Of a stretch of DNA of 46,058 nucleotides, positions 2,716 to 46,040 are shown piece by piece. The stretch is from Clostridia bacterium (GTDB lineage Bacteria; Bacillota; Clostridia; Oscillospirales; Acutalibacteraceae). The stretch is taken from NCBI GenBank assembly GCA_017435865.1, contig JAFSEF010000053.1, positions 205,188 to 251,245 of the forward strand. Reading direction: 5' to 3'. Numbering within the stretch: position 1 is the first letter of the stretch; every line of letters starts with the position of its first letter. The position numbers and the translations under genes were made by a program. The notes under the pieces were generated by a model. The model saw nothing but the letters and a program-made list of their open reading frames with translations, was not told the DNA's origin and made no database searches.

Positions 2716-4956
2716 ATGGGTAAAAAGCTTCCTTTTGTAATTGCTGTTTGCTTGTTGCTTTTGATTGCCGTACCGCTGACATCTGTTCATGCAGTTTCTG
2801 TCGGTGACTACATTGACGACGGTATCGTTGTTGATGAAGATGAATCCTACTGCGGTTGCTGTCATGAACACAATCATGCGGGTATTTTTGCAAAAATATC
2901 ATGTATGTTTTGTAAGATTTCTCAGTTTTTCAAGAATCTTTTTGGCAATGCCGAAGAAAATGTTGAACATAAGTATGTTATAACAAATACAAAGGCAGCA
3001 ACATGTCAAGTTGCCGGATATGAGTCATACAAGTGTCTTGTTTGTCAAAAAACCGTCACACATTCTTTTGCAAAACTCGACCATAAGACAGAAGTCCTGA
3101 AAGCTGTTTCTGCAACCTGTACAGAAAGCGGTTTGTCACAAGGAAGTCGTTGTTCTGTTTGCAACACAATACTTGTCGAACAGACAATTGTTCCTGCATT
3201 CGGTCATGCCTATGATGACGGTATTGTCATAACTGCACCTGTTTGTGAAAAAGAAGGTAAGCGCGTATTCACCTGTGCCACTTGCGGTGACACAAAAACA
3301 GAAACAATCGAAGCTCTTGAGCACGATTGGGAAGATGAAGTAATTGAAGCTCCGACCTGCACAGAAAGCGGTGCGATGGCTCGTGTCTGTCAGCTTTGTG
3401 AAACTTATATTGAACGTGAAATTATACCTGCACTCGGACATGCTTATGACGGCGGAGTTGTAATAACTGAAGCGGATTGCGAGACAGATGGTGTCCGCAG
3501 ATACACTTGTGCAAATTGCAATGACGCATATACGGAATCGATCGCAGCACTTGGACATATTATTCCGCACAATGCAAATGTTGTTTGCTATCCGTACAAT
3601 GATGCTCAATCGGCAGGCTGCCTGACCATCAATTTTGCTTGTGCAAGATGCAGTGATCCGAAAAGCGGATTGCCTTATTTCAGATATGAATACAATGACT
3701 ACAAAGCGGTCATCAAAAACGCTTCCGGTGTTTCTCTCTATGCAACAACAGAAGAAGCACTTGTTGCGAGTAAAAACGGTGACACGGTTATTGTCGGTAT
3801 TGAAGATACAATTAATGCAGATGCAACAGTTCCTGCAGGTGTTACGCTTCTGATTCCTTGTGATAATGTGATGACAGGGTATACTGTGAACGGTTTCAAT
3901 CCCGACAATCCGTCCAAAGAAGGCAGCGCTGTTTTGTATCGTACCCTTACGATTGCAGAAAATGCTACTCTTACTGTCAACGGTACGGTGTTGATCAATG
4001 CAGTTACCGGTAGAGAAGGTGGCGGTTCTGTCATTCCTTATGATAATTCCGGTAATTACGGTCAGATCCGTCTTTATGGCGATATCAGGGTCGGCAACGG
4101 CGGCCTTTTGGATTGTGCCGGTTTTGTTGAAAATGAAGGCGGTACAGTTACGCTTGAAAGCGGTGCCACTATGTATGAAACTTTTGCTATGGAAAAATGG
4201 CGCGGTGGATCTTATGTCACAAACAACAGATTGTTTACACCCATTTACGAGCGACATATGAATAATATGAGAGCGACTTTGTATATAGAGTCCGGTGCAG
4301 CTTTGATCGGTAGTGGCAAAATGTATGCTCAGAATCAGTACTACTACGCACGTTTTCCGCAGATTGACAATACCAACGGCATTATAAGACTCGGGGAAGG
4401 TGCCCATGTAATACGTGAGATTGATGTTGCAGCCGACAGAGATATTTATTCATTCTACGGTGATATTGTCTTTGATAAGTCATCTTTGAATTGTGCCGGC
4501 TATGATCTTGAAACCAGTGCTGTGACGTATTTGTTTGATGGTGATATGACATTTAATTTCTACGCAGGTACAATAACGGTCAATTATAATTTCGGTTTCC
4601 TGCCGGGTGGTATTGTGAATCTGTATGACGGTGCTGCTTTTGAAATTGTTAAATTGGCTTCTTGGGCTATGTTTGATCAGGGCTTCTATGAGATTGAAAG
4701 CACGCTTTGGAGTGAAGGTCATAAATATACAACAGGGCGTGCAAACGCGGTGTTGAATGTTTATGAAAATGCAACGGTACAAGCTGCGGAACCGAAAGCA
4801 AGGTTATTGGGGGACGTTGTTGTCAAAGGTGGTACAGTCGGATCGGTTGCGCTTAAAACCTTTACATATTCCGTACCCAATGGCGGCAACGGATCTGAGG
4901 CTTATCCGGCATCAAGCGGCAGTTATATACTGACCTTGAATATTATAACAGAATAA
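2716..4956 (+). CDS. Large secreted Cys-rich-repeat / beta-solenoid protein
   Basis: An exported protein of 746 residues. The start is taken at 2716 rather than the in-frame ATG at 2710, because AGGAG (2704-2708) is only one base from 2710 but seven from 2716. Residues 1-26 form a signal peptide (cut after SVHA). Next comes a Cys/His cluster (CGCCHEHNH) and an aromatic, amphipathic stretch. Five repeats of about 40 residues follow (roughly 85-285), each C-x5-G-x5-C-x2-C ending with a conserved His after AL-G/D/E; such units recur in clostridial surface proteins and look metal- or disulfide-stabilised. From about residue 310 the sequence is Gly/Asn/Thr-rich with alternating hydrophobics (LTVNGTV, VTLESGA, IYGDI-type), suggesting a parallel beta-solenoid as in adhesins. 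There is no sortase motif, membrane anchor or catalytic motif. Function unknown. Confidence 0.75.
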   Translation: MGKKLPFVIAVCLLLLIAVPLTSVHAVSVGDYIDDGIVVDEDESYCGCCHEHNHAGIFAKISCMFCKISQFFKNLFGNAEENVEHKYVITNTKAATCQVAGYESYKCLVCQKTVTHSFAKLDHKTEVLKAVSATCTESGLSQGSRCSVCNTILVEQTIVPAFGHAYDDGIVITAPVCEKEGKRVFTCATCGDTKTETIEALEHDWEDEVIEAPTCTESGAMARVCQLCETYIEREIIPALGHAYDGGVVITEADCETDGVRRYTCANCNDAYTESIAALGHIIPHNANVVCYPYNDAQSAGCLTINFACARCSDPKSGLPYFRYEYNDYKAVIKNASGVSLYATTEEALVASKNGDTVIVGIEDTINADATVPAGVTLLIPCDNVMTGYTVNGFNPDNPSKEGSAVLYRTLTIAENATLTVNGTVLINAVTGREGGGSVIPYDNSGNYGQIRLYGDIRVGNGGLLDCAGFVENEGGTVTLESGATMYETFAMEKWRGGSYVTNNRLFTPIYERHMNNMRATLYIESGAALIGSGKMYAQNQYYYARFPQIDNTNGIIRLGEGAHVIREIDVAADRDIYSFYGDIVFDKSSLNCAGYDLETSAVTYLFDGDMTFNFYAGTITVNYNFGFLPGGIVNLYDGAAFEIVKLASWAMFDQGFYEIESTLWSEGHKYTTGRANAVLNVYENATVQAAEPKARLLGDVVVKGGTVGSVALKTFTYSVPNGGNGSEAYPASSGSYILTLNIITE

Positions 4957-11661: not shown

Positions 11662-12801
11662 TTAGTTCAAAGGTAATATTTCTTTTCCCATTCTTGTGAT
11701 TTTTGCCGTTGTGTGGATTTCAATCGGTATTGTGGCAAGAAAAGAGTTGTAATCTTTGATTGCTGAATTGTAACTGTCGGTACTCTTTTTTTTGAGCATC
11801 CTTCCCAACGACAGTATGTCACATTTATTTTCTCTGACAGCCTTGCCAATGGTGTTTTTAACGATTGAATGAATCTTGTTTTCTGTTGCCATTCTTAATT
11901 TCTCTACATCATTCATACTCAATTCACGGTGAAGCGGTGCATTGAATTCAATAATATCGCATGATAAAGAAATGTCGATTGTGTATTTAAGCTCCGGTTT
12001 TTCAAGTAAAGTAATTAAAGTTGAGCATCTCTGAACGGCGATTGAAACTTTGCTGCCTTTGTAATCAATTTCAATCGGGCCGCTGTCAAATTTGTCGTTT
12101 GCTATGAGTAACCCCTTTGTCTGTTCGTTATCCAGTACGGCATTGCTGTTCTGAGCAGCAAACAACAGTGAACCTTCTATACCTATTGATTCTGTTTTTG
12201 TCTCTTCGTCTTTTGTGATTTTTACAATCGGCAGTATTGCAGCATCCGTTTCATTCAGAAGATTGCTGATGAATTTGTACATCGGCATTGTTACAGTCAT
12301 TCCGTTGAAAGAGCCGGATTGCAAAACGGAATGGATGATTTTGGATGCCAGTACATTGTTACCGAGATTGATGTTGATAATCTGCTTTGCTGTTGATTCT
12401 GCGGCAGCAAGCAGAATATCATCTCTTGTTGTATATTCACGGATAAAATAATTCAAAGCCGTCATTGGTGCGTTCTGTGTCAGTTCTTTTCCGAGAATAA
12501 TAACACGGGCTTGTGAATACAAAGGAATCTGACCTGAGATCAGGTCAATAGCAGCAAAAGCGGATGCCAGTGTTTTTCCTTTTGCTGAGTACGTTTTTGC
12601 GACTCCGTCCGGTGTGTCGGTTGAGTTTGCTGAACCTGATTGCTGCGTATTTAAAGCAAGCACAGTGATTTCAAAACCATCTTCGGATGTGTCTATTCCG
12701 ATGGCTTCGATGATCAGACGGTCACCGAGCTCTGCTGCACTGATATTTGAGCAACCGGAAAAAAAGACCAAACTGACCATTATAATGATAAGCCTTTTCA
12801 T
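11662..12801 (-). CDS. gerKC: Ger(x)C-family spore germination lipoprotein
   Basis: A 379-residue lipoprotein, the C subunit of a GerA-type germinant receptor. A signal peptide with lipobox FSGC puts the lipidated cysteine at residue 17. The start of the mature part (ELGDRLIIEAIGIDTSEDGFEITVLAL-type pattern) and the segment around YSQARVIILGKEL are hallmarks of the family. The C-terminal half alternates beta strands and long helices, as in GerBC structures. Receptors of this kind sit in the spore inner membrane and respond to nutrients. The start codon overlaps the gerB homologue's end by four bases (ATGA), so the two are translationally coupled. No terminator is seen after the stop; the small gene's promoter follows. 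The symbol follows the gerK naming by analogy only. Confidence 0.9.
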   Translation of the reverse strand: MKRLIIIMVSLVFFSGCSNISAAELGDRLIIEAIGIDTSEDGFEITVLALNTQQSGSANSTDTPDGVAKTYSAKGKTLASAFAAIDLISGQIPLYSQARVIILGKELTQNAPMTALNYFIREYTTRDDILLAAAESTAKQIININLGNNVLASKIIHSVLQSGSFNGMTVTMPMYKFISNLLNETDAAILPIVKITKDEETKTESIGIEGSLLFAAQNSNAVLDNEQTKGLLIANDKFDSGPIEIDYKGSKVSIAVQRCSTLITLLEKPELKYTIDISLSCDIIEFNAPLHRELSMNDVEKLRMATENKIHSIVKNTIGKAVRENKCDILSLGRMLKKKSTDSYNSAIKDYNSFLATIPIEIHTTAKITRMGKEILPLN

Positions 12802-32583: not shown

Positions 32584-33528
32584 ATGGCTGATATTATTAA
32601 AACCGCAACAAGAGATGCTTACGGAAAGGCTCTTGTTGAGTTGGGCGATAAAATTGAAAAATTGGTTGTTTTCGATGCAGACCTTGCAGCTGCTACAAAA
32701 ACAGGTATGTTCAAAAAGGCACATCCTGACAAGTTCATTGACTGCGGTATTGCAGAGGGAAATATGATGGGCGTTGCTGCCGGTATGGCAAGTGCAGGTT
32801 ATACTGTATTTGCAAGTTCTTTTGCAATGTTTGCAGCAGGCAGAGCTTTTGAACAGGTTCGTAATACAATCTGTTATCCGCATCTCAATGTCAAAATCGG
32901 TGCCACACATGCCGGTATTTCTGTCGGTGAAGACGGTGCCAGCCACCAGTGCTGCGAGGACATTGCTCTTATGCGTTCTATTCCCGGTATGACGATTCTC
33001 AATCCTGCTGATGACGTGGAAGCTCGTCTTGCAGTTCTTGCTGCTGCAGAAATGAACGGTCCTGTTTATATGCGTTTCGGCAGACTTGCTGTGCCCAGAG
33101 TATTTGATGAGAATTATAAATTTGAAATCGGTAAGGGTGTTTATCTGACTGAAGGTACGGATGTGACGATTGTTGCTACCGGTCTTATGGTTGAACGTGC
33201 TCTTGCTGCTGCTGAACTTCTGAAGGCTGAAGGTATCAGTGCTGCTGTGATCAATATGGCAACTATTAAGCCGATCGATAAAGATATTCTTCTTGATGCT
33301 GCCAATAAGACCGGTTGCATTGTTACAGCTGAAGAACACAATATTATCGGTGGTCTCGGATCTGCTGTTGCAGAAGTTCTTTCTGAAACAAAGCCTGTTC
33401 CCGTACTTCGTGTCGGTGTTGAAGATGTGTTCGGTAAGTCCGGTCCTGCTCTTGAGTTGCTTGAAATTTTCGGATTGAATGCTGCTAATATTGTTGCAAA
33501 AGCAAAAGCTGCTATTGCACTCAAATAA
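32584..33528 (+). CDS. Transketolase C-terminal subunit
   Basis: A 314-residue polypeptide with the pyrimidine-binding and C-terminal domains of transketolase. [37 protein letters not shown] (Glu58 being the cofactor-activating glutamate), [31 protein letters not shown] and a C-terminal [15 protein letters not shown] are seen. It needs the preceding gene product for activity. The rhamnose isomerase gene follows after 11 bases, with its ribosome binding site touching this gene's stop codon, so the three genes form one transcription unit. Confidence 0.95.
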
Positions 33529-33539
33529 GGAGAATGACT

Positions 33540-34787
33540 ATGTCTGCTGATAGATATAATTATGCAAGAGATCTGTATGCAAAAATCGGTGTTGATACTG
33601 ATGAAGCATTGAAAAAGCTTGCAAATGTACATATTTCCATGCAATGTTGGCAAGGTGATGACGTACAGGGCTTTGATTCTGACGATGCACTGACCGGTGG
33701 TATTCAGGCTACGGGTAATTATCCCGGTAGAGCACGTACACCCGAAGAATTGATGCAGGATATTGATGTTGCCTTTTCTTTGATTCCCGGCAAACATCGT
33801 GTGAATCTGCATTCTTCTTACGCTGTTTTTGATGGCAATAAGACTGATCGTGATAAGCTTGAACCTGAGCATTTTGCTGCATGGGTCAAGTTTGCAAAGG
33901 AAAGAGGAATCGGTCTTGATATCAATCCGACTCTGTTCTCGCATCCTATGGCGGCTGACAGTCTGACTCTTTCTCATCCCGATGAAGAAATCCGCCGTTT
34001 CTGGATCGATCATTGCAAGGCAATGCGTAAAATCGGTGCTTATTTCGGAAAAGAGCTCGGCACACCTGCTCTGAATAATATATGGATTCCTGACGGCTAC
34101 AAGCAGACACCTGCAGATCGTGTCGGACCTCGAGTTCGTCTGAAGGAGTCGCTTGATGAGATTCTTGCTGTGAAATATGATGAATCCGAATTGCTTGATT
34201 GTCTTGAATCCAAGCTGTTTGGTATCGGTCTCGAATCTTACACTGTCGGCTCTTCTGAGTTCTACATGAACTATTGTGCAAAGAATGACCTTATGTGTCT
34301 GCTTGATTCCGGACATTATCATCCCACAGAAGTCATTTCTGATAAAATTGCTGCTTTGCTTGTGTTCTCTGATAAGGTTGCACTTCATGTATCTCGTGGT
34401 GTTCGTTGGGACTCCGATCATGTTGTTAATTTTGATGATGAGCTCAAAGAAATAGCTAAGGAAATCGTCCGTAACGATGCACTTGATCGTGTTATCATCG
34501 GTCTTGATTACTTTGATGCAAGTATCAACCGTATCGCTGCCTGGGTCATTGGTATGCGTAATATGATGAAAGCTTTGTTGTATGCTTTGCTTGCTCCCAA
34601 TGCAGAATTCAAAAAACTGCAGGATGAAGGTAAGTTTACGGAATTGCTTGCATTGACCGAAGAACTTAAATCCTATCCCTTTGCGGATGTGTGGGATGAA
34701 TTTTGTGAACAAAACGGTGTTCCTGTGCGTGAGCAGTGGCTTAAAAAGGTGCAGGATTATGAAGAAAATGTTTTGTCAAAACGTTGA
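33540..34787 (+). CDS. rhaA: L-rhamnose isomerase
   Basis: A 415-residue metal-dependent aldose-ketose isomerase. The start at 33540 is preferred because AAGGAG lies seven bases upstream but only one base before the ATG at 33534. The metal-ligand set of the family is complete: Glu223 (LESKLFGIG), Asp256 and His259 ([11 protein letters not shown]), His283 (ALHVSRG), Asp291 and Asp293 (VRWDSDHVV) and Asp323 ([12 protein letters not shown]), with the same spacing as I recall for the E. coli enzyme. It converts L-rhamnose to L-rhamnulose; relatives also act on D-allose, L-lyxose and similar sugars. No rhamnulokinase, aldolase or RhaS/RhaR-type regulator is nearby. Its neighbour is transketolase, which is unusual. 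Confidence 0.93.
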
Positions 34788-34863
34788 TTGGCTTTATTGC
34801 TGACAAAATCAACAAAAATGTGACGATTGAATTTCTTATGTTGCACAAAAAAGAGAAATACTC

Positions 34864-34892
34864 TTGTAATATGATTGGAACTATGTTATAAT
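34864..34892 (+). promoter_or_regulatory. Promoter of the zinc-ribbon membrane protein gene
   Basis: TTGTAA (34864-34869), a 17-base spacer and TATAAT (34887-34892) lie 36 bases upstream of the ATG at 34929. The gap after rhaA holds only a weak inverted repeat GTTGATT/AATCAAC (34783-34813) with no T-run, so where the long operon ends is unclear. Confidence 0.7.
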
Positions 34893-34928
34893 TACAAAAG
34901 TATATAATGCATAAGGATAGGTGATTGT

Positions 34929-35729
34929 ATGGCTGCTTATTGCCCCAAATGTAATTACAAACTCAAGTTAACGGATTGGCGTCCCGAATGTCCGAAATGT
35001 GGCGTTAATGTTGTTTATTACGGAATTGAAGACAGACTGAATGCTGAAGCTGATAAGGCTGAATATGAACATGCAATGTTCCAGCCGAAGGTAGACAGAA
35101 TTAAGTCGTCTTTCATTGGTGATAATATCGCAAAAACAAGAATTGTTCTTTGCGTATTACCTGTGCTTGCATCTTTGCTTTCCATGGGTTCAATCACTAT
35201 GAATGTTCCTTTTAAAGAAACCGTAAATATCGGGTGGGTATCTATTATTAATGTGGTTACTCTCTTTACTGATTACGGTTTTGACATCAATGCGATCCTT
35301 GCTGCTATCAAATATGAGCCGACCCGTATGGCATTTGTCTGGTTCGCCGTTGCACTTGTCGGACTTGCTCTTGCAGTTGTAACCTGGCTCGTAGGTTTGA
35401 TTTTGCTTACTCTTTCTTGTTCCCCCAAAGGCATTCAGAGAAACATTACTCTTGCAGGCATGGGAATTGGTTTTGCTACCATCTCTTTCATCGGTTCCGT
35501 GCTGATGTCCGGTGCAATGGCTGATGTATTCCCCGGTATCTTCTCTGCAAGCGTATCTCCTTTGGCTCTGATTGGCTTTATTGTTACTTGGGGCGCTGTT
35601 ATTGCCATTAATGTAATCAATAAGAAGAAGGGTATCACAATCAATTATAAAGATGTTTCTGAGTACCTTATTCCTTATGAAGAAAGAAAAGCTCAGAAAG
35701 AAGCAGCTGCTGTAAAAGCAGACGCTTGA
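34929..35729 (+). CDS. Zinc-ribbon multi-pass membrane protein of unknown function
   Basis: A 266-residue protein. It opens with a zinc ribbon (YCPKCNYKL, then ECPKCGVNVVYYG; two CPxC pairs within the first 25 residues). A polar linker follows, then about four membrane helices: near 75-95, 140-170, 178-200 and 212-232. A charged C-terminal tail (PYEERKAQKEAA) probably lies in the cytoplasm together with the ribbon. No transport or catalytic motif is recognised. It has its own promoter and terminator and so is monocistronic. Similar ribbon-plus-helices proteins are frequent in Clostridia without assigned roles. Confidence 0.75.
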   Translation: MAAYCPKCNYKLKLTDWRPECPKCGVNVVYYGIEDRLNAEADKAEYEHAMFQPKVDRIKSSFIGDNIAKTRIVLCVLPVLASLLSMGSITMNVPFKETVNIGWVSIINVVTLFTDYGFDINAILAAIKYEPTRMAFVWFAVALVGLALAVVTWLVGLILLTLSCSPKGIQRNITLAGMGIGFATISFIGSVLMSGAMADVFPGIFSASVSPLALIGFIVTWGAVIAINVINKKKGITINYKDVSEYLIPYEERKAQKEAAAVKADA

Positions 35730-35766
35730 TTGTTGAGTAATATCAATAGACAAATAGTTTAAAATG

Positions 35767-35796
35767 AACCGCTCATTTTTATGGGCGGTTATTTGT
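35767..35796 (+). terminator. Hairpin terminator after the zinc-ribbon membrane protein
   Basis: AACCGCTCAT (35767-35776), loop TTTT and ATGGGCGGTT (35781-35790) form a ten-pair stem with one G-U. The tail ATTTGTT is only moderately T-rich. Confidence 0.75.
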
Positions 35797-35830
35797 TAGC
35801 TGTGAAAATGATTCTTTACCTATTTTCTAC

Positions 35831-35859
35831 TTGACAACAGGTCAAATTATTGTTATAAT
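35831..35859 (+). promoter_or_regulatory. Promoter of tRNA-Val
   Basis: Perfect TTGACA (35831-35836), a 17-base spacer and perfect TATAAT (35854-35859) lie 18 bases before the mature tRNA 5' end. It is one of the two strongest promoters in the window, the other being that of murC. Confidence 0.85.
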
Positions 35860-35877
35860 ATGTAGCGGTCAATAAAT

Positions 35878-35954
35878 GGGGGCGTAGCTCAGTTGGTTAG
35901 AGCGCCTGCTTCACACGCAGGAGGTCTGCAGTTCGAGTCTGCACGTCCCCACCA
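35878..35954 (+). tRNA. tRNA-Val (anticodon CAC)
   Basis: Acceptor arm GGGGGCG pairs with CGTCCCC. D-arm GCTCAGTTGGTTAGAGC, anticodon arm CCTGC-TTCACAC-GCAGG with anticodon CAC (reads GUG), T-arm TGCAG-TTCGAGT-CTGCA, discriminator A and an encoded CCA are all present. Total 77 bases. A degenerate copy of its 3' half lies 255 bases downstream. Confidence 0.96.
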
Positions 35955-35988
35955 AAAAATCGGCAAGCAGTCGCTTGTCGATTTTTTT
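35955..35988 (+). terminator. Terminator of tRNA-Val
   Basis: AAATCGGCAAGC, loop AGTC and GCTTGTCGATTT form a 12-pair stem with one G-U. It is flanked by an A-run and a seven-T run and starts directly after the CCA. Confidence 0.9.
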
Positions 35989-35990
35989 AT

Positions 35991-36152
35991 CCAATCCGCA
36001 GGATTGGTATGTAATCACGGCGCAGCCGTGTATGTAATCAGCGAAGCTGCATGTAACCAAAATCTTTACACTGCGGATTGATTACATCCATTTCCAATCG
36101 TAAATGAGTCCATACAACACTTCGTTTTGATTCCATATCGCCTATGGCGGAT
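35991..36152. repeat. Array of short hairpins with a repeated linker in two orientations
   Basis: Small palindromes with three-base loops alternate with a linker of about nine bases. Hairpins: CCAATCC-GCA-GGATTGG (35991-36007), CACGGC-GCA-GCCGTG (36016-36030), CAGC-GAA-GCTG (36039-36049), CAACAC-TTC-GTTTTG (one mismatch, from 36115) and CGCC-TAT-GGCG (36139-36149). Linkers: TATGTAATC at 36008 and 36031 and CATGTAACC at 36050. Then, inverted: GATTACATCC at 36080, GAGTCCATAC at 36106 and GATTCCATAT at 36129. The order is three forward, then three reverse. No coding frame is credible here. It resembles neither a CRISPR array (units differ) nor an ordinary terminator. Confidence 0.75.
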
Positions 36153-36162
36153 TTTATACAAC

Positions 36163-36205
36163 GCTTGACAAGCACAATGTCAGCAGTTCGAGTACGAACG
36201 TATCC
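36163..36205 (+). other. Degenerate copy of the tRNA-Val 3' half
   Basis: Aligned without gaps to 35908-35950 (anticodon loop through the acceptor 3' strand of tRNA-Val), 33 of 43 bases agree by hand count, including an unbroken GCAGTTCGAGT around the T-loop. The T-stem no longer pairs and the CCA is ATG, so it is not a functional tRNA. Such partial duplications are what integrases using tRNA 3' ends leave behind. The remainder of the gap to 36279 shows nothing recognisable. Confidence 0.55.
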
Positions 36206-36270
36206 ATGGTGCAAGAATTCGTTTGATTGAACTGCATTCTATTATTCTGTGTGTTTTGATGGAAGCAATA

Positions 36271-36316
36271 AAAAATATAAACCGTGTCTCGACGTATTGC
36301 GAAACACGGTTGTTTT
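36271..36316. terminator. Terminator of the lipoprotein operon (probably bidirectional)
   Basis: AACCGTGT (36280-36287) pairs with ACACGGTT (36304-36311), extended by CG/CG pairs inside. On the minus strand the stem is followed by TTATATTTTTT, 30 bases past the lipoprotein stop. On the plus strand TGTTTT follows. Confidence 0.8.
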
Positions 36317-36346
36317 AATTGTGAGAAACTGTAAATAACAGAATAA

Positions 36347-37627
36347 TTAACCAACAGCGTCTGAAATGGTTGTCGGGGGAGTGGTTGCAGCAGTCTGTGT
36401 TGTTGTAACAACTTGCGGTTCAGTTGTTGTTGGTTGTGTTGTTGACGGAATCGTAGTAACAGGAGCCGTGGTAACAGGAGTAGTTGTTTGTTGTTGTGTA
36501 GTTGACTCCTGAATTGCCGTGAATTTGCCCGTATTATCTACATAATAAGCATGTGTCATTGTGTCATCAAAAGCAACTTTCATTGAACCACTGCCACCAA
36601 AAATCGTAACTGTGTACACAAACATCATTCTGTTGTCAGCATATGACGTGTCAGTACGCGTTGCTCTTGTAGCATTGTCTGCACCGACTTCTTTTTCAGC
36701 AAGCTGAAGTGCATATGCTATATAGTCAGCTTCAGTATAGTTTGTTGAAACTGATTCGGCTATAACCGGTTTTCCGTTGAAGGAACCGATTCTTTTGTAT
36801 TGACCGTTTGCAGCCTCATCAATATAAACAGTACCTGTTTTTGTTACGGCGAACTTAATTGTTTTGTTGTTTGCCGTGGCATCGAACAAGGTTACATTTG
36901 TTCTGTTGATAACACCCGTGCCGGTCTCTTTGACAGTGGGTTCAGTGCCGAACAGACCTTTAAAAGCGGTCTTCAGGCTTGTTTCTTCAACTGTTACAGC
37001 AGGTTTTTCGGTCAGATCTTCTTCATTGATGCGGGATAGTTTTCTGTTTTTCCATTGGTAAAGATTCTCAACAGGCTCTCCATTGACATAGGATATCCCT
37101 TTGATAGTCTTCTTTGTTGCATCAATTGTAAGGTTTACAAGTGATGAAAGCTGACTGCTATAGTTGAAACTCTTTGAAGGATGATCCCACAGCCAACAAA
37201 TATATTGCTTGCCGTCTTTTGTGTTATTCTGAATCAGTCCAATGTCTGTATGACCGTCAAAATCCATATCCGACAGCAGCAAGGTACCTTCACCGCCAAT
37301 GAGGGATTCGTTTATGTCACTTACGTTATAAGTCAATAATCGCTGCTTGAAAGTAATACCTGATAATACTTCTTCAGCTTTGCTTACCTCTTTGTTTCCA
37401 TCACCTACAAGTGCATAGAAAGTGCCGCTTAAATATGCAAAAACAACTTTTTCGCCATTGAAATTGTCGAGTTCAACGAGAATCTTTGCTTTTTCAGGGA
37501 TCTTGCCCGGAGGTGTCACAGTTACCGTTGCATTTTCGTATATGCTTGGCGGTTCATCCTCTGCAACACAGGATGACAGGCAAAAAGCCATTACCAGAAT
37601 TAAGAAAAAAGTAAATACATTTTTCAT
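36347..37627 (-). CDS. Lipoprotein with calcium-loop motif and Thr/Pro-rich tail
   Basis: A 426-residue lipoprotein. Its signal peptide ends in lipobox CLSSC (Cys20). A beta-rich first half contains LLLSDMDFDGHTDIGLI, which fits the DxDxDGxxD calcium loop of VCBS/FG-GAP repeats, and several Trp/Tyr-rich strands. A second domain (about 230-375) includes YTVTIFGGSGSMKVAFDDT. The last 50 residues are almost only Thr, Pro, Gln, Val and Ala (TTTPVTTAPVTTIPSTTQP), a linker-like tail unexpected at a C-terminus. It follows the deacetylase gene by 35 bases in the same direction, without a visible promoter of its own, so it is probably co-transcribed. Envelope surface location is likely; function unknown. 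Confidence 0.7.
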   Translation of the reverse strand: MKNVFTFFLILVMAFCLSSCVAEDEPPSIYENATVTVTPPGKIPEKAKILVELDNFNGEKVVFAYLSGTFYALVGDGNKEVSKAEEVLSGITFKQRLLTYNVSDINESLIGGEGTLLLSDMDFDGHTDIGLIQNNTKDGKQYICWLWDHPSKSFNYSSQLSSLVNLTIDATKKTIKGISYVNGEPVENLYQWKNRKLSRINEEDLTEKPAVTVEETSLKTAFKGLFGTEPTVKETGTGVINRTNVTLFDATANNKTIKFAVTKTGTVYIDEAANGQYKRIGSFNGKPVIAESVSTNYTEADYIAYALQLAEKEVGADNATRATRTDTSYADNRMMFVYTVTIFGGSGSMKVAFDDTMTHAYYVDNTGKFTAIQESTTQQQTTTPVTTAPVTTIPSTTQPTTTEPQVVTTTQTAATTPPTTISDAVG

Positions 37628-37662
37628 GTGATTTTCACCGTGACAGTGGATTTGTTGAATCC

Positions 37663-38526
37663 TCAGTTGACAATTTCAAGATGAGCTGTGTAGGAGTTTT
37701 CATTGAGTGAAAGGAATTCATAGCCAAGATTCTTGTAATGCTCAATTACACGTGGCAGGCATTCCACTGTTGTGTCAAGATAGTCAGTGTCATGCATAAG
37801 CATAACGATAACATCTTCATAATCGTAGGAAATTGCAAACTCATAAAGTTCATCTGCGGTATAAGGTTCAGTGCTTGCGTCTGCGTTTGTTGCGTTCCAG
37901 TCGAAGTAAACGTAACCGCGGTTTTCAACTTCTTCAGCAAGACGTGACATGATGCCGATATTGTAGTTTTCGCTGACAGTGTTACTGCTACCGCCGGGGA
38001 AGCGAATCAGATTGGTAGTAACACCTGTCAGATCATATACGAGATCAGCGATAGCATCGAGATCTTCGAAATAAGCTTCTTCAGACTGATAAATTGTTTC
38101 ATAATCATGTGTATACGTGTGCAGTGCAAGCGTATGACCATGATCTACAATGTTCTGATATTCATTGTCATAACCGGAAGCAACAACAAAGAATGTTGCC
38201 TGGCAATCGTAAGTATCAAGAATGTCAAGAATTTCCTGTGTGTTGCTCGAAGGACCGTCATCGAAGGTCAGATACATGATCTTCGTACCTTCAGGGAAAT
38301 CTTCTTCTGTCAACTGGCCGGGTTGCTGTGTCAGGTTTTGCTCTGTTGTATAAGCATCTTCAATATTTGCACGGATTTCTTCCTGACGTGCAACCGTAAG
38401 TTCCTGAATCTGATTCGGAGCTGCCGCAATGACTTCCTGTTCACGGCTGCAGGCAGCACACGTGAGAAGCAGAACGATCGCAAGAAGTATGCCGATGAAA
38501 CATCTTATTGTTTTTACATGATTCAT
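37663..38526 (-). CDS. Polysaccharide deacetylase (NodB fold) lipoprotein
   Basis: A 287-residue protein starting at 38526 (AGGAAG eight bases upstream). The N-terminal hydrophobic segment ends LLLTCAACS, a tolerable lipobox with Cys26. The NodB catalytic set is present: TFDDGPS (Asp89, Asp90), HTYTH (His136, His140), RFPGG (Arg175), DWNATNAD and a late LMHD. Family members remove acetyl groups from peptidoglycan or other N-acetyl glycans outside the membrane. Residues 30-80 form a Gln/Glu-rich spacer. Its own promoter is at 38561-38589. It precedes a lipoprotein gene in an apparent two-gene unit. Whether the role is vegetative or spore-related (cortex muramic lactam) cannot be decided from sequence. 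Confidence 0.88.
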   Translation of the reverse strand: MNHVKTIRCFIGILLAIVLLLTCAACSREQEVIAAAPNQIQELTVARQEEIRANIEDAYTTEQNLTQQPGQLTEEDFPEGTKIMYLTFDDGPSSNTQEILDILDTYDCQATFFVVASGYDNEYQNIVDHGHTLALHTYTHDYETIYQSEEAYFEDLDAIADLVYDLTGVTTNLIRFPGGSSNTVSENYNIGIMSRLAEEVENRGYVYFDWNATNADASTEPYTADELYEFAISYDYEDVIVMLMHDTDYLDTTVECLPRVIEHYKNLGYEFLSLNENSYTAHLEIVN

Positions 38527-38560
38527 AATGAAATCTTCCTTTTGTTGTATAATTGCTTCT

Positions 38561-38589
38561 ATATTACCACATTTGTTTACATTTTGCAA
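38561..38589 (-). promoter_or_regulatory. Promoter of the polysaccharide deacetylase gene
   Basis: On the minus strand TTGCAA (38589-38584), 17 bases and TAATAT (38566-38561) lie 35 bases upstream of the start. The elements are nearly the same as those of the phosphoesterase operon promoter. Confidence 0.7.
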
Positions 38590-38667
38590 GCATCAGACGA
38601 TTTCTTAATAAATCTTAAATAAATAGAATTATATACATTTTTGTAATATTAAAAAAAATTATGTCAA

Positions 38668-39240
38668 CTATCTCAATATCGGTTGTAATTGTTGCTCTGA
38701 AAGTGCAGCATTTACACAAGGTAGCAGCAGTGAAAAATCCGCAACAAGTGACGTAGGTTTGTTGATACAATCGTCTTGTCTGTAAGGTATAAAGTAGTAG
38801 TTTTTTCTTGTAAGCAATGTGCCGATATTCGCTGCAGCTGCACATAAACCGTCATTGGTCGAAATGCCTATCAATACAGGACGTGCATTTCGGAGTTGTG
38901 ATTTTACAGCAAGCGTCACGGGTGTATCTGCAATACCTGCAGCAAGTTTTGCAAGTGTATTTCCTGTGCATGGAGCAACAATGAGAAGATCAAGCATTTT
39001 CCTCGGGCCGATTGGTTCAGCATCTACCAATGAGCTGATTACCTGATTTCCGGTTATATTTTCCATCTTTTCTATGAACGATATGGCTGTTCCGAATCGG
39101 GTATCTGTGTTGTAGGCATTGTAACTCATAATCGGTATAATCTCAAAACCGGCCGATTTCAGATTCTGCAATTGCTCCAGTACTTTTCCGAACGTACAGA
39201 ATGAACCGCATACAGCAAATCCGACAGTTTTATTTTTCAT
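38668..39240 (-). CDS. dpaB: Dipicolinate synthase subunit B
   Basis: A 190-residue flavoprotein-like subunit (also called spoVFB). It begins KTVGFAVCGSFCTFGKVLEQ and carries VAPCTGNTLAKLAAGIADTP, which binds the flavin-like pocket in this fold, and IGISTNDGLCAAAANIG. With DpaA it oxidises dihydrodipicolinate to dipicolinic acid, the calcium chelator stored in the spore core, in the mother cell. Its start overlaps the dpaA stop by one base. No terminator is evident in the 140 bases before the deacetylase gene. Confidence 0.95.
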   Translation of the reverse strand: MKNKTVGFAVCGSFCTFGKVLEQLQNLKSAGFEIIPIMSYNAYNTDTRFGTAISFIEKMENITGNQVISSLVDAEPIGPRKMLDLLIVAPCTGNTLAKLAAGIADTPVTLAVKSQLRNARPVLIGISTNDGLCAAAANIGTLLTRKNYYFIPYRQDDCINKPTSLVADFSLLLPCVNAALSEQQLQPILR

Positions 39241-40109
39241 CAGGATCCCTCCGTCAAGTATCTGTGAATTGATTGTCCGATAATTTCACCGGCAGTTTTC
39301 GGTGCGGTTTTCCCGGGCAATGAAGCGGCTTTTATAACGCGTCGTCCAAGTTCTTCTGCCGCATTGAAATCTATTCCGAAAGGTTTGCTTGCCACTTCAA
39401 TGAAAACGCAGGACTGTTGTGACATTTCAAGGACAGAAGAATCAATTATTAATTCGGGAACAGTATTTATAACACAGTCAAATTGTCCGATCGCATTAAT
39501 CATTTCATTGATGTGTAAAGAATTGATTCCGTTTATCAGTGCTTGTGTCAATGCTGTGCTGCGACGTGCAAAAACAGTTACTGACGCTCCCATGCTTTTT
39601 AATGCAGCTGCAGTACAGTTTGCAACTCTTCCGTATCCGACAACAGCACAATGCATACCTGATAAAGTGATCGGCAATTGATCAGTGAGAATGCCGATAA
39701 TGCCTTCAGCTGTCAACTGTGCATTTCGAAGCGTCAGATTTTCATCTTTAAAATAGTCAATCACTTTGCAGCCGTTGACCTGTAGTGCGTTCTCAAATCG
39801 CTTTGGCGGCATCCCGCAGAATATGGTGGTGTCCGGTGTGATTTTTCTTAAAATATCTTGCAGGTAAAGCTTTTTGTCTGAAAATACTGCATTTAAAGTG
39901 TATTCGTCACGGGTTACCGGCAATGGAAGAATAATATTCTTGTTTTCCGGAAGCAAGTCATCAATATCATAGTTGTGAATATTGTCCGGGAGTGTTGCCT
40001 GCGAAAAAGCTGACATCTGAACACGATAACCTTTTTGTTTCAAATACGCAGCAAGGTGGATTTGTCTTGTGTCTCCGCCTAATATGATAAGATTGTTTTT
40101 TGAATTCAT
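39240..40109 (-). CDS. dpaA: Dipicolinate synthase subunit A
   Basis: A 289-residue dehydrogenase-type subunit (spoVFA). The N-terminal LIILGGDTRQIHLAAYLKQ is the family signature. A second nucleotide-binding motif, AVVGYGRVANCTAAAL, is followed by VTVFARR. LPGKTAPKTAGEIIG near the C-terminus is also conserved. GGAGGG lies upstream of the ATG. The gene is normally driven by sigma K in the mother cell. CATAAATTA (40135-40127, minus strand) matches the CATAnnnTA -10 pattern, but I see no good -35 partner, so this remains a hint. murC is divergent. Confidence 0.95.
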   Translation of the reverse strand: MNSKNNLIILGGDTRQIHLAAYLKQKGYRVQMSAFSQATLPDNIHNYDIDDLLPENKNIILPLPVTRDEYTLNAVFSDKKLYLQDILRKITPDTTIFCGMPPKRFENALQVNGCKVIDYFKDENLTLRNAQLTAEGIIGILTDQLPITLSGMHCAVVGYGRVANCTAAALKSMGASVTVFARRSTALTQALINGINSLHINEMINAIGQFDCVINTVPELIIDSSVLEMSQQSCVFIEVASKPFGIDFNAAEELGRRVIKAASLPGKTAPKTAGEIIGQSIHRYLTEGS

Positions 40110-40166
40110 AAAAGTCCCTCCGTTAATAATTTATGCGGTCTTGCTGCTTTTGACATGGAAAATTAC

Positions 40167-40195
40167 TTGACAAGAAAAATAGGATGTAATATAAT
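40167..40195 (+). promoter_or_regulatory. Promoter of murC
   Basis: Consensus TTGACA (40167-40172), 17 bases and TATAAT (40190-40195) leave a leader of about 55 bases before the GTG start. GAGGAG lies eight bases before that GTG. Confidence 0.85.
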
Positions 40196-40256
40196 ATCAT
40201 GATGTGTTAATAAATACTTCAAGAACAATTTTATATGAGCCAGAGGAGTTGTTTTT

Positions 40257-41663
40257 GTGAAAGAAATAGATAAATTGCTTGATAGCGTAAAACGTATTCA
40301 TTTTATCGGTATTGGCGGTTCCGGCATGTGCCCTTTGGCAGAAATTCTGCATGAAAAAGGCTACATTCTCAGCGGATCTGATAATAACGAGAGTAACATT
40401 CTTAAAAGAATCCGAGCGTTGGGTATACCTGTTGTGCTCGGTCAGAAAGCAGAAAACATCGGTGATGCAGAACTTGTAATTTATACCGCTGCACTTTTAC
40501 CTGATAATCCGGAATTGGTGGCCGCCAAAGAATCCGGTATTCCAACATTTGAAAGAAGTGTCCTTTTCGGTGCCGTTACACGCAAATTCAACCGCTGCGT
40601 CGGTGTTTGCGGTACGCATGGAAAGACTACAACAACATCAATGCTTACACAGATGCTTATGCACGCCGGGGAAGATCCGTCTGCGGTTATCGGCGGTAAA
40701 TTGCCTTTGATTGATGCGTATGGTCGTATCGGAAAAACAGATCTTATTGTCTGTGAATCCTGTGAATTTGCAAATCACTTTCTTGAACTTTCACCGTCAT
40801 GTGTATTGATTCTGAATGTTGATGCGGATCATCTTGAATTCTTTAAGACAATTGACAATCTGATCAATTCCTTTTCTAAGTTTGCTGATCTTGCTTCTGA
40901 TTGCGTTATTTATAACGGAGATGATGAAAAGTCTCGTCGTGCTGTCAGCGGAATGCAAACGAAAAAAGAACTTATCACATTCGGTCTGGATAAAGGCAAT
41001 GACTGGTATGCCGAAAATGTGCATTTTGAACATGGTGCATTTGCAGTATTTGATGTATACAAAAAAGGTGAATTGATCGGTACTGCACATCTTTCGGTTC
41101 CCGGTGATCATAATGTTTATAATGCCCTCGGTGCAATAGCAGCTGCCGATTATGTCGGTGCGGATCTTCAGAAGAGTATGGAAGGTATGGGGCAATTTCA
41201 TGGTGCCGGCAGACGTTTTGAAGAACTCGGTAACGTAAACGGTATTACCGTTATTGATGACTATGCACATCATCCTGCAGAATTGCTCGTTACAATTGAA
41301 TCAGCAATGAAAATGGATTACAATCGTGTATGGGCAGTGTTCCAGCCGTTTACTTTCTCGAGAACGTATATGCTCCTTGACGATTTTGCAAAGGTGCTTT
41401 CTCTTGCTGACCGTGTTGTGTTGACTGATATCATGGGTTCCCGTGAGGTCAATACATGGGATATTCACACGAAAGATCTTGCAGATAAAATTCCCGGTTG
41501 TGTATGGTTTGAATCTGCTGATAAAACAAGCAACTTTGCTGAAATTGCACAGTATATCTGTGATAATGCACAAAGTGGTGATCTTATACTTACACTTGGT
41601 TGCGGTGATGTTTATAAGATTGCAGAACAGTTGCTTGATAAGCTTCAAGAAAAATACAATTAA
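40257..41663 (+). CDS. murC: UDP-N-acetylmuramate-L-alanine ligase MurC
   Basis: A 468-residue Mur ligase that adds L-alanine to UDP-MurNAc in peptidoglycan synthesis. The start is GTG at 40257. The N-terminal substrate-binding loop HFIGIGGSGM (16-24), ATP loop GTHGKTTTTS (119-128), DADHLEFF, and the C-terminal DDYAHHPAEL and FQPFTFSRT are all present. Full length, monocistronic, with its own strong promoter and a shared terminator. Its divergent neighbour is the dipicolinate synthase operon. Confidence 0.96.
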   Translation: MKEIDKLLDSVKRIHFIGIGGSGMCPLAEILHEKGYILSGSDNNESNILKRIRALGIPVVLGQKAENIGDAELVIYTAALLPDNPELVAAKESGIPTFERSVLFGAVTRKFNRCVGVCGTHGKTTTTSMLTQMLMHAGEDPSAVIGGKLPLIDAYGRIGKTDLIVCESCEFANHFLELSPSCVLILNVDADHLEFFKTIDNLINSFSKFADLASDCVIYNGDDEKSRRAVSGMQTKKELITFGLDKGNDWYAENVHFEHGAFAVFDVYKKGELIGTAHLSVPGDHNVYNALGAIAAADYVGADLQKSMEGMGQFHGAGRRFEELGNVNGITVIDDYAHHPAELLVTIESAMKMDYNRVWAVFQPFTFSRTYMLLDDFAKVLSLADRVVLTDIMGSREVNTWDIHTKDLADKIPGCVWFESADKTSNFAEIAQYICDNAQSGDLILTLGCGDVYKIAEQLLDKLQEKYN

Positions 41664-41699
41664 AAAACGAGGCACGCATCGATCAGATGCGTGCCTTTG
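41664..41699. terminator. Shared terminator of murC and the reductase operon
   Basis: GGCACGCATC (41671-41680), loop GATCA and GATGCGTGCC (41686-41695) form a perfect ten-pair stem. The plus strand has TTTG after it; the minus strand has TCGTTTTTT, so it is the stronger terminator for the minus-strand operon. Confidence 0.88.
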
Positions 41700-41717
41700 C
41701 TGATAAATCTTTATTTG

Positions 41718-43091
41718 TTATAGAAGATTGTCTGAGTCATCAAAGTTGTTATTCTCATAACGGATAGAATTATAAAACGAGTCGTACTTATCTGCCCATT
41801 TCTTTACATCTTCACGTACATAATCTTCCGGCAATGAATTGAGAATCGGAAGCAACTTTGCCAACCATACAGTTATACTCCGAAGCTTCTTTTGCAGTTC
41901 TTTGTTGTCAAAAAATCTCAACATTTTATCCTTGATAGTGTTAACACCTGAGTCAGTGATCAGGTTGACAAGGCCGTTTTTTGTCGCAGATGCATCAATG
42001 ATTTTTTGGTTGATGATGTTTTCTTTCAACAAATATGCAACGTCTTCTGTTGTGAGCATTGTCAGAAGAACTTTACCGAGTGCTATGATGGAAGCATTTT
42101 TGCCGATCTCTTTGAAGAAGTTGACTTGGTATGACCATAATGATTGAGCTGTAAACAATTCATCTTTATCTGCAAGAATTGTGTCGGCGAGTATTCTGCC
42201 GGCCTGCATCGCATAACCGACTCCTGATCCTTTGATGGAGTAAGTCATAAATGCACAATCGCCGATTGCTGCATAACCGTCAGCAACAAGAATTGACAAC
42301 GGTTGTCTGACGGGAATATCTGTAACGTGTCCTCCGCGAATCAGTCTATTGCCGAGTTGCGGATTCTCTCTTTTCAGGCTTTCAATAGTATGTGTTGTGT
42401 CTTCTTCCTGATAAGGATTGAATCTTCCGATGAGTACATCAACATCATCATCGTTGGTAATAATCCATTGCATTCCGATGTTTCCGTCTTCAAAGACGTA
42501 CACTTTATAGGGTTCTGTTTCAGGACAATCAGGTATTTTGTTGTAAAATGCTCTGTATGTGTGCAGAATATCAAACTGACTGATTGTGCTGTTGATCAGA
42601 AATTTTTCCGGAAGGTTTGTCTTAAGAGGAGAGTTGACACCGCAGGAGTCGATAACAATGTCTGCAAAATAATCGCCTTTTTCAGTATGAACGCCGCAAA
42701 CCCTGCTGCCGAAAATAATCGGTCCTGTTATTTTTGTATTAAATACAATGTTTACGCCTACCTCCATAGCAAGACCGATAAGATATTGACACAGTATTTT
42801 TCTTTCTATGAATACTGTGTAACCGTCAGGTGGTACAACTTGTGTAATGTCAGGTGTTGTATCATCATTGCAGCAAAGTGTAATCGGTGTACGTAATTTT
42901 ACATATTCTTCAGGGACAGGGATGTCTGCTTTTTCAAAACAATCCAGATTGACAGAGTCAGGTTGATCAAGACCCATAGCGTAGAGAGATGACGATTCAA
43001 GAACCGTTACCTGTACTCCGTTTTTTGCAAGATGATATGCTGTGGCAAGACCGCCGTGACCGGCTCCTGCTATCAGAACTTTACAATGCAT
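41718..43091 (-). CDS. FAD-dependent oxidoreductase, geranylgeranyl-reductase-like
   Basis: A 457-residue flavoprotein. The dinucleotide-binding motif VLIAGAGHGGLATAYHLAKNG opens the protein, and the second FAD motif DGYAAIGDCAFMTYSIKGSG lies near residue 280. Both are typical of the geranylgeranyl reductase/squalene-epoxidase-like group 2 flavoproteins. The last 120 residues are helical and unassigned. Family members reduce or hydroxylate isoprenoid or aromatic substrates; the substrate here is unknown. It starts 16 bases after a histidine kinase gene, so the two-component system probably controls it or is co-expressed with it. No NAD(P)H partner gene is nearby. Confidence 0.75.
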   Translation of the reverse strand: MHCKVLIAGAGHGGLATAYHLAKNGVQVTVLESSSLYAMGLDQPDSVNLDCFEKADIPVPEEYVKLRTPITLCCNDDTTPDITQVVPPDGYTVFIERKILCQYLIGLAMEVGVNIVFNTKITGPIIFGSRVCGVHTEKGDYFADIVIDSCGVNSPLKTNLPEKFLINSTISQFDILHTYRAFYNKIPDCPETEPYKVYVFEDGNIGMQWIITNDDDVDVLIGRFNPYQEEDTTHTIESLKRENPQLGNRLIRGGHVTDIPVRQPLSILVADGYAAIGDCAFMTYSIKGSGVGYAMQAGRILADTILADKDELFTAQSLWSYQVNFFKEIGKNASIIALGKVLLTMLTTEDVAYLLKENIINQKIIDASATKNGLVNLITDSGVNTIKDKMLRFFDNKELQKKLRSITVWLAKLLPILNSLPEDYVREDVKKWADKYDSFYNSIRYENNNFDDSDNLL

Positions 43092-45917: not shown

Positions 45918-45940
45918 AACCCCGCCATAGTGGCGGGGTT
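45918..45940. repeat. Perfect palindrome at the probable insertion-sequence border
   Basis: AACCCCGCCA (45918-45927), loop TAG and TGGCGGGGTT (45931-45940) form a ten-pair GC-rich stem. CAAAAAA follows on the plus strand, so it would terminate weakly at best for minus-strand transcripts. It lies just outside the promoter of the gene starting at 46050 and may mark the element's end. Confidence 0.6.
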
Positions 45941-45964
45941 CAAAAAAGGCTATTGCCTATGAGT

Positions 45965-45994
45965 GAGACAAAAAAACTCCTGATGTGTTATAAT
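45965..45994 (+). promoter_or_regulatory. Promoter inside the left arm of the leader hairpin
   Basis: TATAAT (45989-45994) with GAGACA (45965-45970) 18 bases upstream. The start point should fall near 46001, downstream of the left arm of the inverted repeat (45977-45991). Confidence 0.6.
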
Positions 45995-46040
45995 AAAAGC
46001 GTGACCTGCCAGTTACGCAAACAAAATAACACATCAGGAG
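45977..46040 (+). promoter_or_regulatory. Long leader hairpin that can hide the ribosome binding site
   Basis: CTCCTGATGTGTTAT (45977-45991) is a perfect 15-base inverted repeat of ATAACACATCAGGAG (46026-46040). Inside, GCGTGAC (45999-46005) pairs with GTTACGC (46012-46018). The AGGAGG ribosome binding site (46036-46041) is in the right arm, so it is paired whenever the left arm is transcribed. Confidence 0.8.

Follow-up and report, generated by a model that had tools for sequence, protein, structure and literature searches.

IVS of the 23S rRNA, for example in Coxiella burnetii, carry a gene for a protein of the S23/IVP family, and the pertinent section of the source calls their origin and function unclear (PMC4990558). 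The IVP protein is described, in passages dealing with its fold, as a relative of Avd from the diversity-generating retroelements (DGR) with a homologous four-helix bundle (PMC10053308), and Avd works together with a reverse transcriptase and a structured RNA, as excerpts of a further report state (PMC12875486). IVP is also mentioned in a section on rRNA insertions of CPR bacteria (PMC11270868), and a CRISPR survey names the 23S rRNA IVP in a figure legend (PMC10910872). Heptamer direct repeats of the TAACTGA type occur in Beggiatoaceae, cyanobacteria and Bacteroidetes and were possibly spread horizontally by a mechanism that the relevant passages present as not evident; the terms four helix, intervening, S23 and Avd are absent from the main text of that paper (PMC4679880). 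The general picture is that neither a role nor a way of moving has been established for the IVP (S23) family known from 23S IVS, and that heptamer repeats have been described without an owner. Another class of intergenic repeats is formed by the REP and BIME sequences, short palindromes that are present in both orientations.

In the 46,058-nucleotide stretch of DNA analyzed here (the window), conserved linkers alternate with hairpins behind the gene for tRNA-Val(CAC), and we consider it highly probable that this array is a partly decayed copy, devoid of an IVP gene, of a mobile element that was inserted directly behind the CCA of the tRNA, a reading that includes the mechanism proposed below for IVP and the linkers. 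The complete element resembles the 23S IVS in that a short selfish element bearing inverted repeats occupies the gene of a stable RNA and encodes a PF05635 protein, the mechanism of its movement not being established in the corresponding section of the source; IVS, however, reside inside the 23S rRNA and are cut out by RNase III (PMC4990558), whereas the array element follows the CCA of a tRNA, lies outside the mature RNA and includes a terminator and a linker–hairpin array. The TAACTGA-type repeats are likewise 7-bp direct repeats that are largely intergenic and patchy in occurrence, as far as the passages on their distribution go (PMC4679880), but the 7-bp tandems linked to IVP precede IVP genes, and the tRNA-associated branch has interspersed hairpins. 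In contrast to DGR, no reverse transcriptase is seen in the array–IVP units compared, and genome G050 lacks a match to RVT_1; unlike in REP and BIME, the linkers of the arrays are constant while the stems vary, an IVP gene is present and tRNA CCA ends are the target. IVS, DGR, REP/RAYT and integrase attachment regions each have at least one defining feature that was tested and that the unit lacks; the complete element is therefore rated categorically new, and the window array is a relic member of this new kind of element. Among the titles listed by searches of open PubMed Central text, none connects IVP with hairpin arrays, with heptamers or with the ends of tRNAs.

The layout of the locus is given in Table 1. 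An initial annotation, made from the letters alone, had described three forward and three inverted linkers between hairpins with the loops GCA, GCA, GAA, TTC and TAT, and these are all present, although its forward starts were one base too low and the TTC and TAT hairpins are imperfect, while a sixth hairpin has decayed. By analogy with transferred elements in which the homologous block begins at the CCA and includes the terminator (L132/L133, L174/L176 and L153/L175), the terminator behind tRNA-Val would be part of the unit. The copy in genome G014 matches the window at 91% over positions 35878–36167. A higher frequency of the linker than in shuffled DNA had been named as a touchstone, and the outcome depends on the word chosen: exact ATGTAATC is enriched in the window (8 copies versus 2.22 ± 1.49 in shuffles; 0 of 100 shuffles reach 8), but the degenerate word ATGKMAYC is not enriched window-wide (19 versus 14.35 ± 3.57; 9 of 100 shuffles reach 19), so that the signal lies in the ordered cluster and not in the count. 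The 226-nt stretch 35955–36180 folds better than 200 of 200 shuffles (z of −4.0 and −3.5 for the two strands), in part because it includes the terminator. A lone ATGTAATC at 35611–35618, inside an ORF upstream of the tRNA, is most likely due to chance, and a scan of the window for other symmetric arrays yielded one weak set only (12405–12640).

Table 1. Features of the array behind tRNA-Val(CAC) in the window
Feature	Position	Strand	Evidence or remark
tRNA-Val (CAC), host gene; CCA end is left boundary of the unit (tRNA 3' end, 35954)	35878..35954	+	ARAGORN; Rfam RF00005, 69.2 bits
Terminator hairpin with A-run and T-run	35955..35988	+	inverted repeat I4
hp1 CCAATCC-GCA-GGATTGG, first hairpin	35991..36007	+	stem invariant across 9 aligned arrays
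Forward linker 1 ATGTAATC	36009..36016	+	exact match
hp2 CACGGC-GCA-GCCGTG	36016..36030	+	two-sided changes in 3/6 pairs over 9 arrays (helix 3)
Forward linker 2 ATGTAATC	36032..36039	+	exact match
hp3 CAGC-GAA-GCTG	36039..36049	+	two-sided changes in 3/4 pairs (helix 4)
Forward linker 3 ATGTAACC, variant position; many relatives have ATGGCATC or ATGTCATC	36051..36058	+	
Center CTGCGGATTG	36071..36080	+	exact reverse complement of 35992–36001 (hp1 5' arm and loop); inverted repeat I15
Inverted linker 1 GATTACAT	36080..36087	-	
hp5, decayed in window; G014 has perfect CATTTCC-TTAC-GGAAATG	36089..36105	+	helix 5
Inverted linker 2 GAGTCCAT, degenerate	36106..36113	-	
hp6 CAACAC-TTC-GTTTTG, imperfect in window, perfect in G014	36115..36129	+	helix 6
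Inverted linker 3 GATTCCAT	36129..36136	-	
hp7 around CGCC-TAT-GGCG, imperfect in window	about 36138..36150	+	helix 7
Inverted linker 4, degenerate: GATTTTAT in window, GATTTCAT in G014	36150..36157	-	
End-hairpin remnant (stump)	36158..36167	+	homology to G014 copy ends at 36167

Arrays with ATGTAATC form a dispersed family. When ATGTAATC-N12..18-ATGTAATC was used as the search unit and the reversed pattern as control, the window's own genome gave 8 matches, spread over four contigs, and none for the control; the linker–hairpin unit is present in 10 of the 59 genomes compared (own included). A unit with another spacing occurs in 13 of 394 genomes of the order (own included; one match for the reversed control), and in two of these 13, G351 and G258, the flanking hairpin is absent by eye. 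A scan of named genomes returned at least 118 stretches with the unit; among the matches listed, 40 have a hairpin of at least four pairs between the linkers, and 27 of the 29 titled stretches among these 40 stem from Clostridia, Clostridiales, Oscillospiraceae or Ruminococcaceae. The motif is thus not unique to the window locus, as the proposed genome-wide search has established for both the own genome and relatives. Viral contigs contributed 72 stretches, three of them with a hairpin between the linkers and one with a clear array (L381). This complete ATGTAATC array (IMGVR_UViG_3300032167_006405, positions 4000–4260; contig classed as viral) has, by eye, a consensus-like promoter at its right end, followed by an ORF unlike IVP.

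The clear copies that were inspected share one architecture. Their left half consists of a terminator, a T-run, hp1 (CCAATCCGAAGGATTGG or nearly so), a T preceding ATGTAATC, and hairpins, the third linker often being ATGGCATC or ATGTCATC, and their right half of a spacer, the reverse complement of the hp1 5' arm, GATTACAT–hairpin units and an end hairpin that often leads into TTGATT and in several copies is followed by a T-run. Across these copies and the aligned ones the stems change and the linkers are conserved, as the initial annotation had it for the window. Among 59 distinct left ends of ATGTAATC arrays, 33 have a tRNA ending 34–44 bp before hp1 (for Val, Gln, Thr, Arg, Pro, Asn, Ser, Ala, Leu, Lys or Glu), 25 have none and one was too short; an IVP motif lies downstream of seven left ends, all seven at a tRNA, and of none of 50 others, two being too short. 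Hence some ATGTAATC copies carry a PF05635 gene, and the window copy is one without. Very long arrays are seen at L016 (G024:C32, positions 1500–1790), with 11 exact forward units and several identical hairpins, and at L142, with 12 reverse linkers upstream of the IVP gene, which suggests tandem expansion on one side only. At L028 (G021:C8, about 1206–1450) an intact tRNA-Arg(CCG) and a short insert are followed by an apparent second tRNA 3' end before the array, similar to an att duplication. By eye, the terminator hairpins at L242, L245, L250 and L067 are extended, the tRNA or tmRNA end pairing with a stretch similar to GGTGG that immediately precedes the first linker.

The right end of the array at L016, L018 and L030 adjoins a gene resembling S23/IVP, an assignment confirmed by a family search, and at L054 a second array with another linker (GTGAAG/CTTCAC) lies between tRNA-Arg and an IVP gene. 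All 14 aligned IVP proteins match PF05635 and TIGR02436; a profile made from them retrieves the five-chain entries 2rld (E 8e-42) and 2gsc, and PADLOC yields marginal matches for two of the 14 at most. PF05635 was detected at 130 places in 43 of the 59 genomes (own included), and 123 of these places form the IVP locus set. An array was scored when the 450 bp before the IVP gene contained a 6-mer with at least two forward and at least two reverse copies, five in all. This test was passed by 75 of 109 TSIGANI-type genes (34 failed), 3 of 10 PSNIAEG-type genes and 0 of 1 unclassified gene, three loci being too short; in control stretches, all IVP types taken together, the corresponding numbers were 9 of 105 further upstream and 9 of 116 downstream. 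With a looser linker finder (two forward plus two reverse copies), which had no control of its own and some of whose 88 positives are probably chance, every forward copy precedes every reverse copy in 72 of the 123 IVP loci.

Linker sequence and IVP protein go together. In 66 arrays linker similarity tracks IVP identity (Mantel r 0.41, 0 of 2000 permutations), the relation declining below about 60% identity, and two sister IVP types are accompanied by sister linkers, NTVFQIRKSSSSVFANI by ATGTAATC and NTLFQIRKSSSSVYANI by ATATCATC. That the linker follows the lineage of the neighboring IVP protein supports the earlier idea that the linkers may be protein sites and makes them likely recognition sites, although the correlation could stem from co-inheritance of a linked unit rather than from binding. 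The sole IVP gene found in the window's genome, which is 84.8% complete, has a different linker (L196).

The initial annotation had also tied the array to tRNA genes, and this is borne out at many relatives, where a tRNA is encoded shortly upstream. Among the 106 TSIGANI-type genes with at least 300 bp of upstream sequence, 43 are preceded by a tRNA or tmRNA on the same strand within 700 bp, and none by one on the opposite strand; an upstream tRNA or tmRNA accompanies 42 of the 81 genes with a linker versus 1 of the 25 without. No same-strand tRNA or tmRNA was found upstream of the 10 PSNIAEG-type genes, nor any downstream of the IVP gene at 119 loci, mostly over about 400 bp of downstream sequence.

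Evidence for mobility comes from 42 pairs of IVP loci that are alike over at least 350 bp, some of which reflect ordinary orthology. For 11 of these pairs the tRNA is known on both sides; it differs in nine and is the same in two. In three of the nine different-tRNA pairs the similar block sets in at the tRNA end, in the rest further inside. One of the three consists of L132 (G005, tRNA-Gln TTG) and L133 (G024, tRNA-Ser CGA), which agree at 93.8% over 738 bp from the tRNA end, that is, from a shared GCCA and the terminator to about 45 nt past the IVP stop codon, with unrelated flanks; no target-site duplication was seen by eye at their boundaries. The other two pairs are L127 and L128, from different families (tRNA-Gly and tRNA-Arg, 80%), and L174 and L176, both in G013 (tRNA-Thr and tRNA-Ser, 80%). 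In addition, L153 (tRNA-Gly) and L175 (no tRNA recognized) are 91% alike across families from the GCCA on. Since the blocks start at CCA or GCCA, the terminator travels with the element in the compared pairs. Judged by these comparisons, the unit of terminator, array and IVP gene is mobile, and nearly the same unit is located behind different tRNAs across genomes and families, with the unit as such behind many tRNA genes. As to terminal repeats of the MITE or IS type, hp1 and the center are complementary, but the outer ends do not appear to be repeats of one another.

Occupation of a single target can be followed at tRNA-Val(CAC), which is readable in 15 of the 26 genomes of the genus. ATGTAATC arrays are present in the window and in G014, a ATATCATC array on a tRNA 3' half in G021, a TATTCAT array together with IVP in G004 and G023, CTTCACT arrays in G002 and G007, and AATGAAG arrays in G009 and G024. 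Remnants are visible by eye in G001 and G011, and no array was seen in G010, G012, G018 (about 130 nt only) and G022 (about 60 nt only). The copies in G014 and G021 have the end hairpin and downstream sequence in common despite their different linkers. The G021 copy (L231) keeps only the 3' half of the tRNA, from the anticodon loop on, and in the window a remnant at 36163–36206 is similar to the tRNA-Val 3' half (75% over 44 nt; D1) and starts at the same position in the anticodon loop as L231. This remnant looks like an old integrase or tRNA remnant that is independent of the array.

The stems were inspected for pairing and for the manner in which they change. In nine aligned arrays 90.2% of the cells are paired versus 74.3% in shuffles, and 24 of 47 pairs have changes on both sides versus 4 to 7 with slid partners, the structure having been drawn from one of the nine rows, which favors it over the slid versions. 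In helices 3–8, the hairpins after hp1, 35 cells are changed on both sides and one on one side, and in the terminator helix 25 and five; hp1 is invariant. In 92 non-redundant arrays we counted 272 perfect hairpins versus 38.7 in shuffles. Single mismatches in the interiors of these arrays comprise six G.T and five A.C (8.3 and 8.0 in shuffles), that is, 11 informative mismatches; with terminators included the test gave 19 versus 4, and terminators alone, intended as the RNA control, showed no significant bias (4 G.T versus 2 A.C). The picture of Watson–Crick palindromes that change as units, with no strand bias visible in these small numbers, leans towards DNA hairpins. The center matches the 5' arm of hp1 or of the terminator over at least 7 nt in 41 of 71 arrays (shuffled partners: mean 4.3, maximum 10); a narrower search box, which in some of the families was placed on the incorrect side of hp1, gave 22 of 71 matches (null maximum 7). 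In L234 and L235, tRNA-Val loci with another linker type, the center is, by eye, an inverse copy of the tRNA end CCACCA and the terminator arm.

In our proposal, a complete element would begin with its own terminator, hp1, forward linker–hairpin units and a center complementary to the hp1 5' arm, and would continue with inverted linker–hairpin units, a promoter-like stretch (by eye, in few copies) and a single gene for a PF05635 four-helix-bundle protein. The IVP protein, whose related structures are five-chained, would bind the linkers, the perfect palindromes would form DNA hairpins or a cruciform, and the IVP–array complex would recognize tRNA 3' ends, where the unit would be inserted with the aid of host or other helper enzymes. 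Insertion would be harmless because the tRNA transcript would still be ended by the carried terminator. The proposal has to be weighed against the lack of an insertion enzyme encoded in the element, the failure to identify a target-site duplication, the 25 ATGTAATC left ends without a tRNA and the 50 without an IVP motif, the 34 TSIGANI-type genes that failed the array test, and the window copy, which lacks an IVP gene in a genome whose only one found goes with another linker. Concerning helpers, the IVP gene is the only gene in the units compared, and neither a recombinase nor a reverse transcriptase was seen in them; among nine proteins scanned around the array in the window (32584–43091), two of which match nothing, there is none of either kind. 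Matches to RVT_1 were found in 24 of the 59 genomes and to Y1_Tnp in 29 (own included), and both are absent from G050 (seven IVP places, 98% complete), G038 (four, 98%), G028 (four, 97%) and G054 (two, 99%). It is therefore unlikely that the same genome must supply a helper of one or the other kind, even if these genomes may have lost it or a match may have been overlooked; obligate help by a reverse transcriptase, which was considered, is not supported in view of the IVP-rich genomes without RVT_1.

The same genomes bear on the possibility that the array consists of REP- or BIME-like palindromes mobilized by a Y1 transposase (RAYT or TnpA). Hairpins with a conserved flanking word would fit, as would the frequent Y1_Tnp matches, but the conserved part is the linker and not the hairpin, and the four genomes just named have several IVP places each and no Y1 match, which makes this explanation very improbable. 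Even less credence can be given to the initial suggestion that the linkers serve a tyrosine integrase as arm-type sites flanking an attachment core at tRNA-Val. The tRNA-like remnant at 36163–36206 and the tRNA 3' half at L231 do suggest that integrases use tRNA-Val; against the arm-site reading stand the nine neighboring proteins, none of which matches a recombinase family, and the recurrence of one array layout behind many different tRNAs, in some cases with an IVP gene, which complete elements carry instead. The duplication of tRNA-Val is not needed as an explanation either, since by eye the G014 array sits at the same tRNA without the remnant.

A structured RNA, also raised at the outset, would arise by read-through of the terminator, and hairpins and linkers would act as RNA. 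The good folding, the many compensatory changes and the T-run behind the end hairpin of several copies speak for it, but it is not favored: the terminator precedes the array, the stems show no preference for G.U over A.C and change on both sides at once instead of stepwise, promoters are seen by eye downstream of the array in a few copies, and no Rfam family reached the cut-off on the array stretch (window, L009–L011). We regard an RNA function as improbable. Somewhat less so, yet still unlikely, is that the array is regulatory DNA, an immobile operator or insulator acting on a right-end promoter in the autoregulation of IVP. Promoter-like elements were indeed noted by eye at the right end, downstream of the array, at L067, L072, L081, L095 and L381, and the linker tracks the IVP lineage; many arrays, however, show no IVP gene, one unit occurs at different tRNA genes with unrelated flanks, and an operator needs no tRNA CCA end. 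A regulatory role may exist in addition to mobility.

Insertion of an IVP-linked unit behind a gene may extend beyond tRNAs. Of the 46 IVP genes without a symmetric array, 35 belong to relatives, and the other 11 are among the 25 places that a phylum-wide search returned. A run with a 7-bp period is present in the 130 bp upstream of 25 of these 46, and none with a period of 5, 6, 8 or 9; control stretches of these genes gave 0/41, 2/41, 2/45 and 0/27, and tiles of the window 0/354. For IVP genes with an array the numbers are 13/88 and, in the controls, 0/77, 0/74, 3/85 and 0/14. Within 220 bp upstream, 26 of 42 array-less genes have a 7-bp run, and 21 of these 26 runs start no more than 15 nt from the stop codon of a long open frame, a count that has no control and is biased by stop words within the heptamers. 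At the PSNIAEG-type loci L062 and L063, tandem heptamers before the IVP gene start at the stop codon of the upstream gene.

Tentatively, and with rather less confidence than for the window array itself, we propose that IVP genes might define a widespread mobile class that recognizes the 3' ends of genes via a protein-specific tandem word of 7–8 bp, in this order the tRNA CCA and elsewhere the stop codons of protein genes, and that spreads without a recognized transposase, integrase or reverse transcriptase of its own. The 23S IVS and orphan heptamers could be other faces of this class and the hairpin arrays its DNA-hairpin form; in that case the arrays would have been elaborated from tandem heptamers. 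By these comparisons, IVP genes belong together with tandem 7–8 bp words, symmetric arrays of hairpins and tRNA 3' ends as parts of a single mobile unit whose left boundary is defined, and scattered, unexplained repeats thereby gain a likely common owner. Two predictions follow, namely that the IVP protein reads its own linker and that the unit inserts at CCA ends. If true, a mobile element that encodes no more than one protein, of about 117 residues and outside all known enzyme families, would be surprising, and its insertion at tRNA ends could be developed into a tool. At the far edge of the window, positions 45918–46040 match the Hfq-binding RNA STnc490 of Rfam (RF01405, 65.5 bits, cut-off 56) just before the ORF at the window edge, in a genome that is Clostridia-like.
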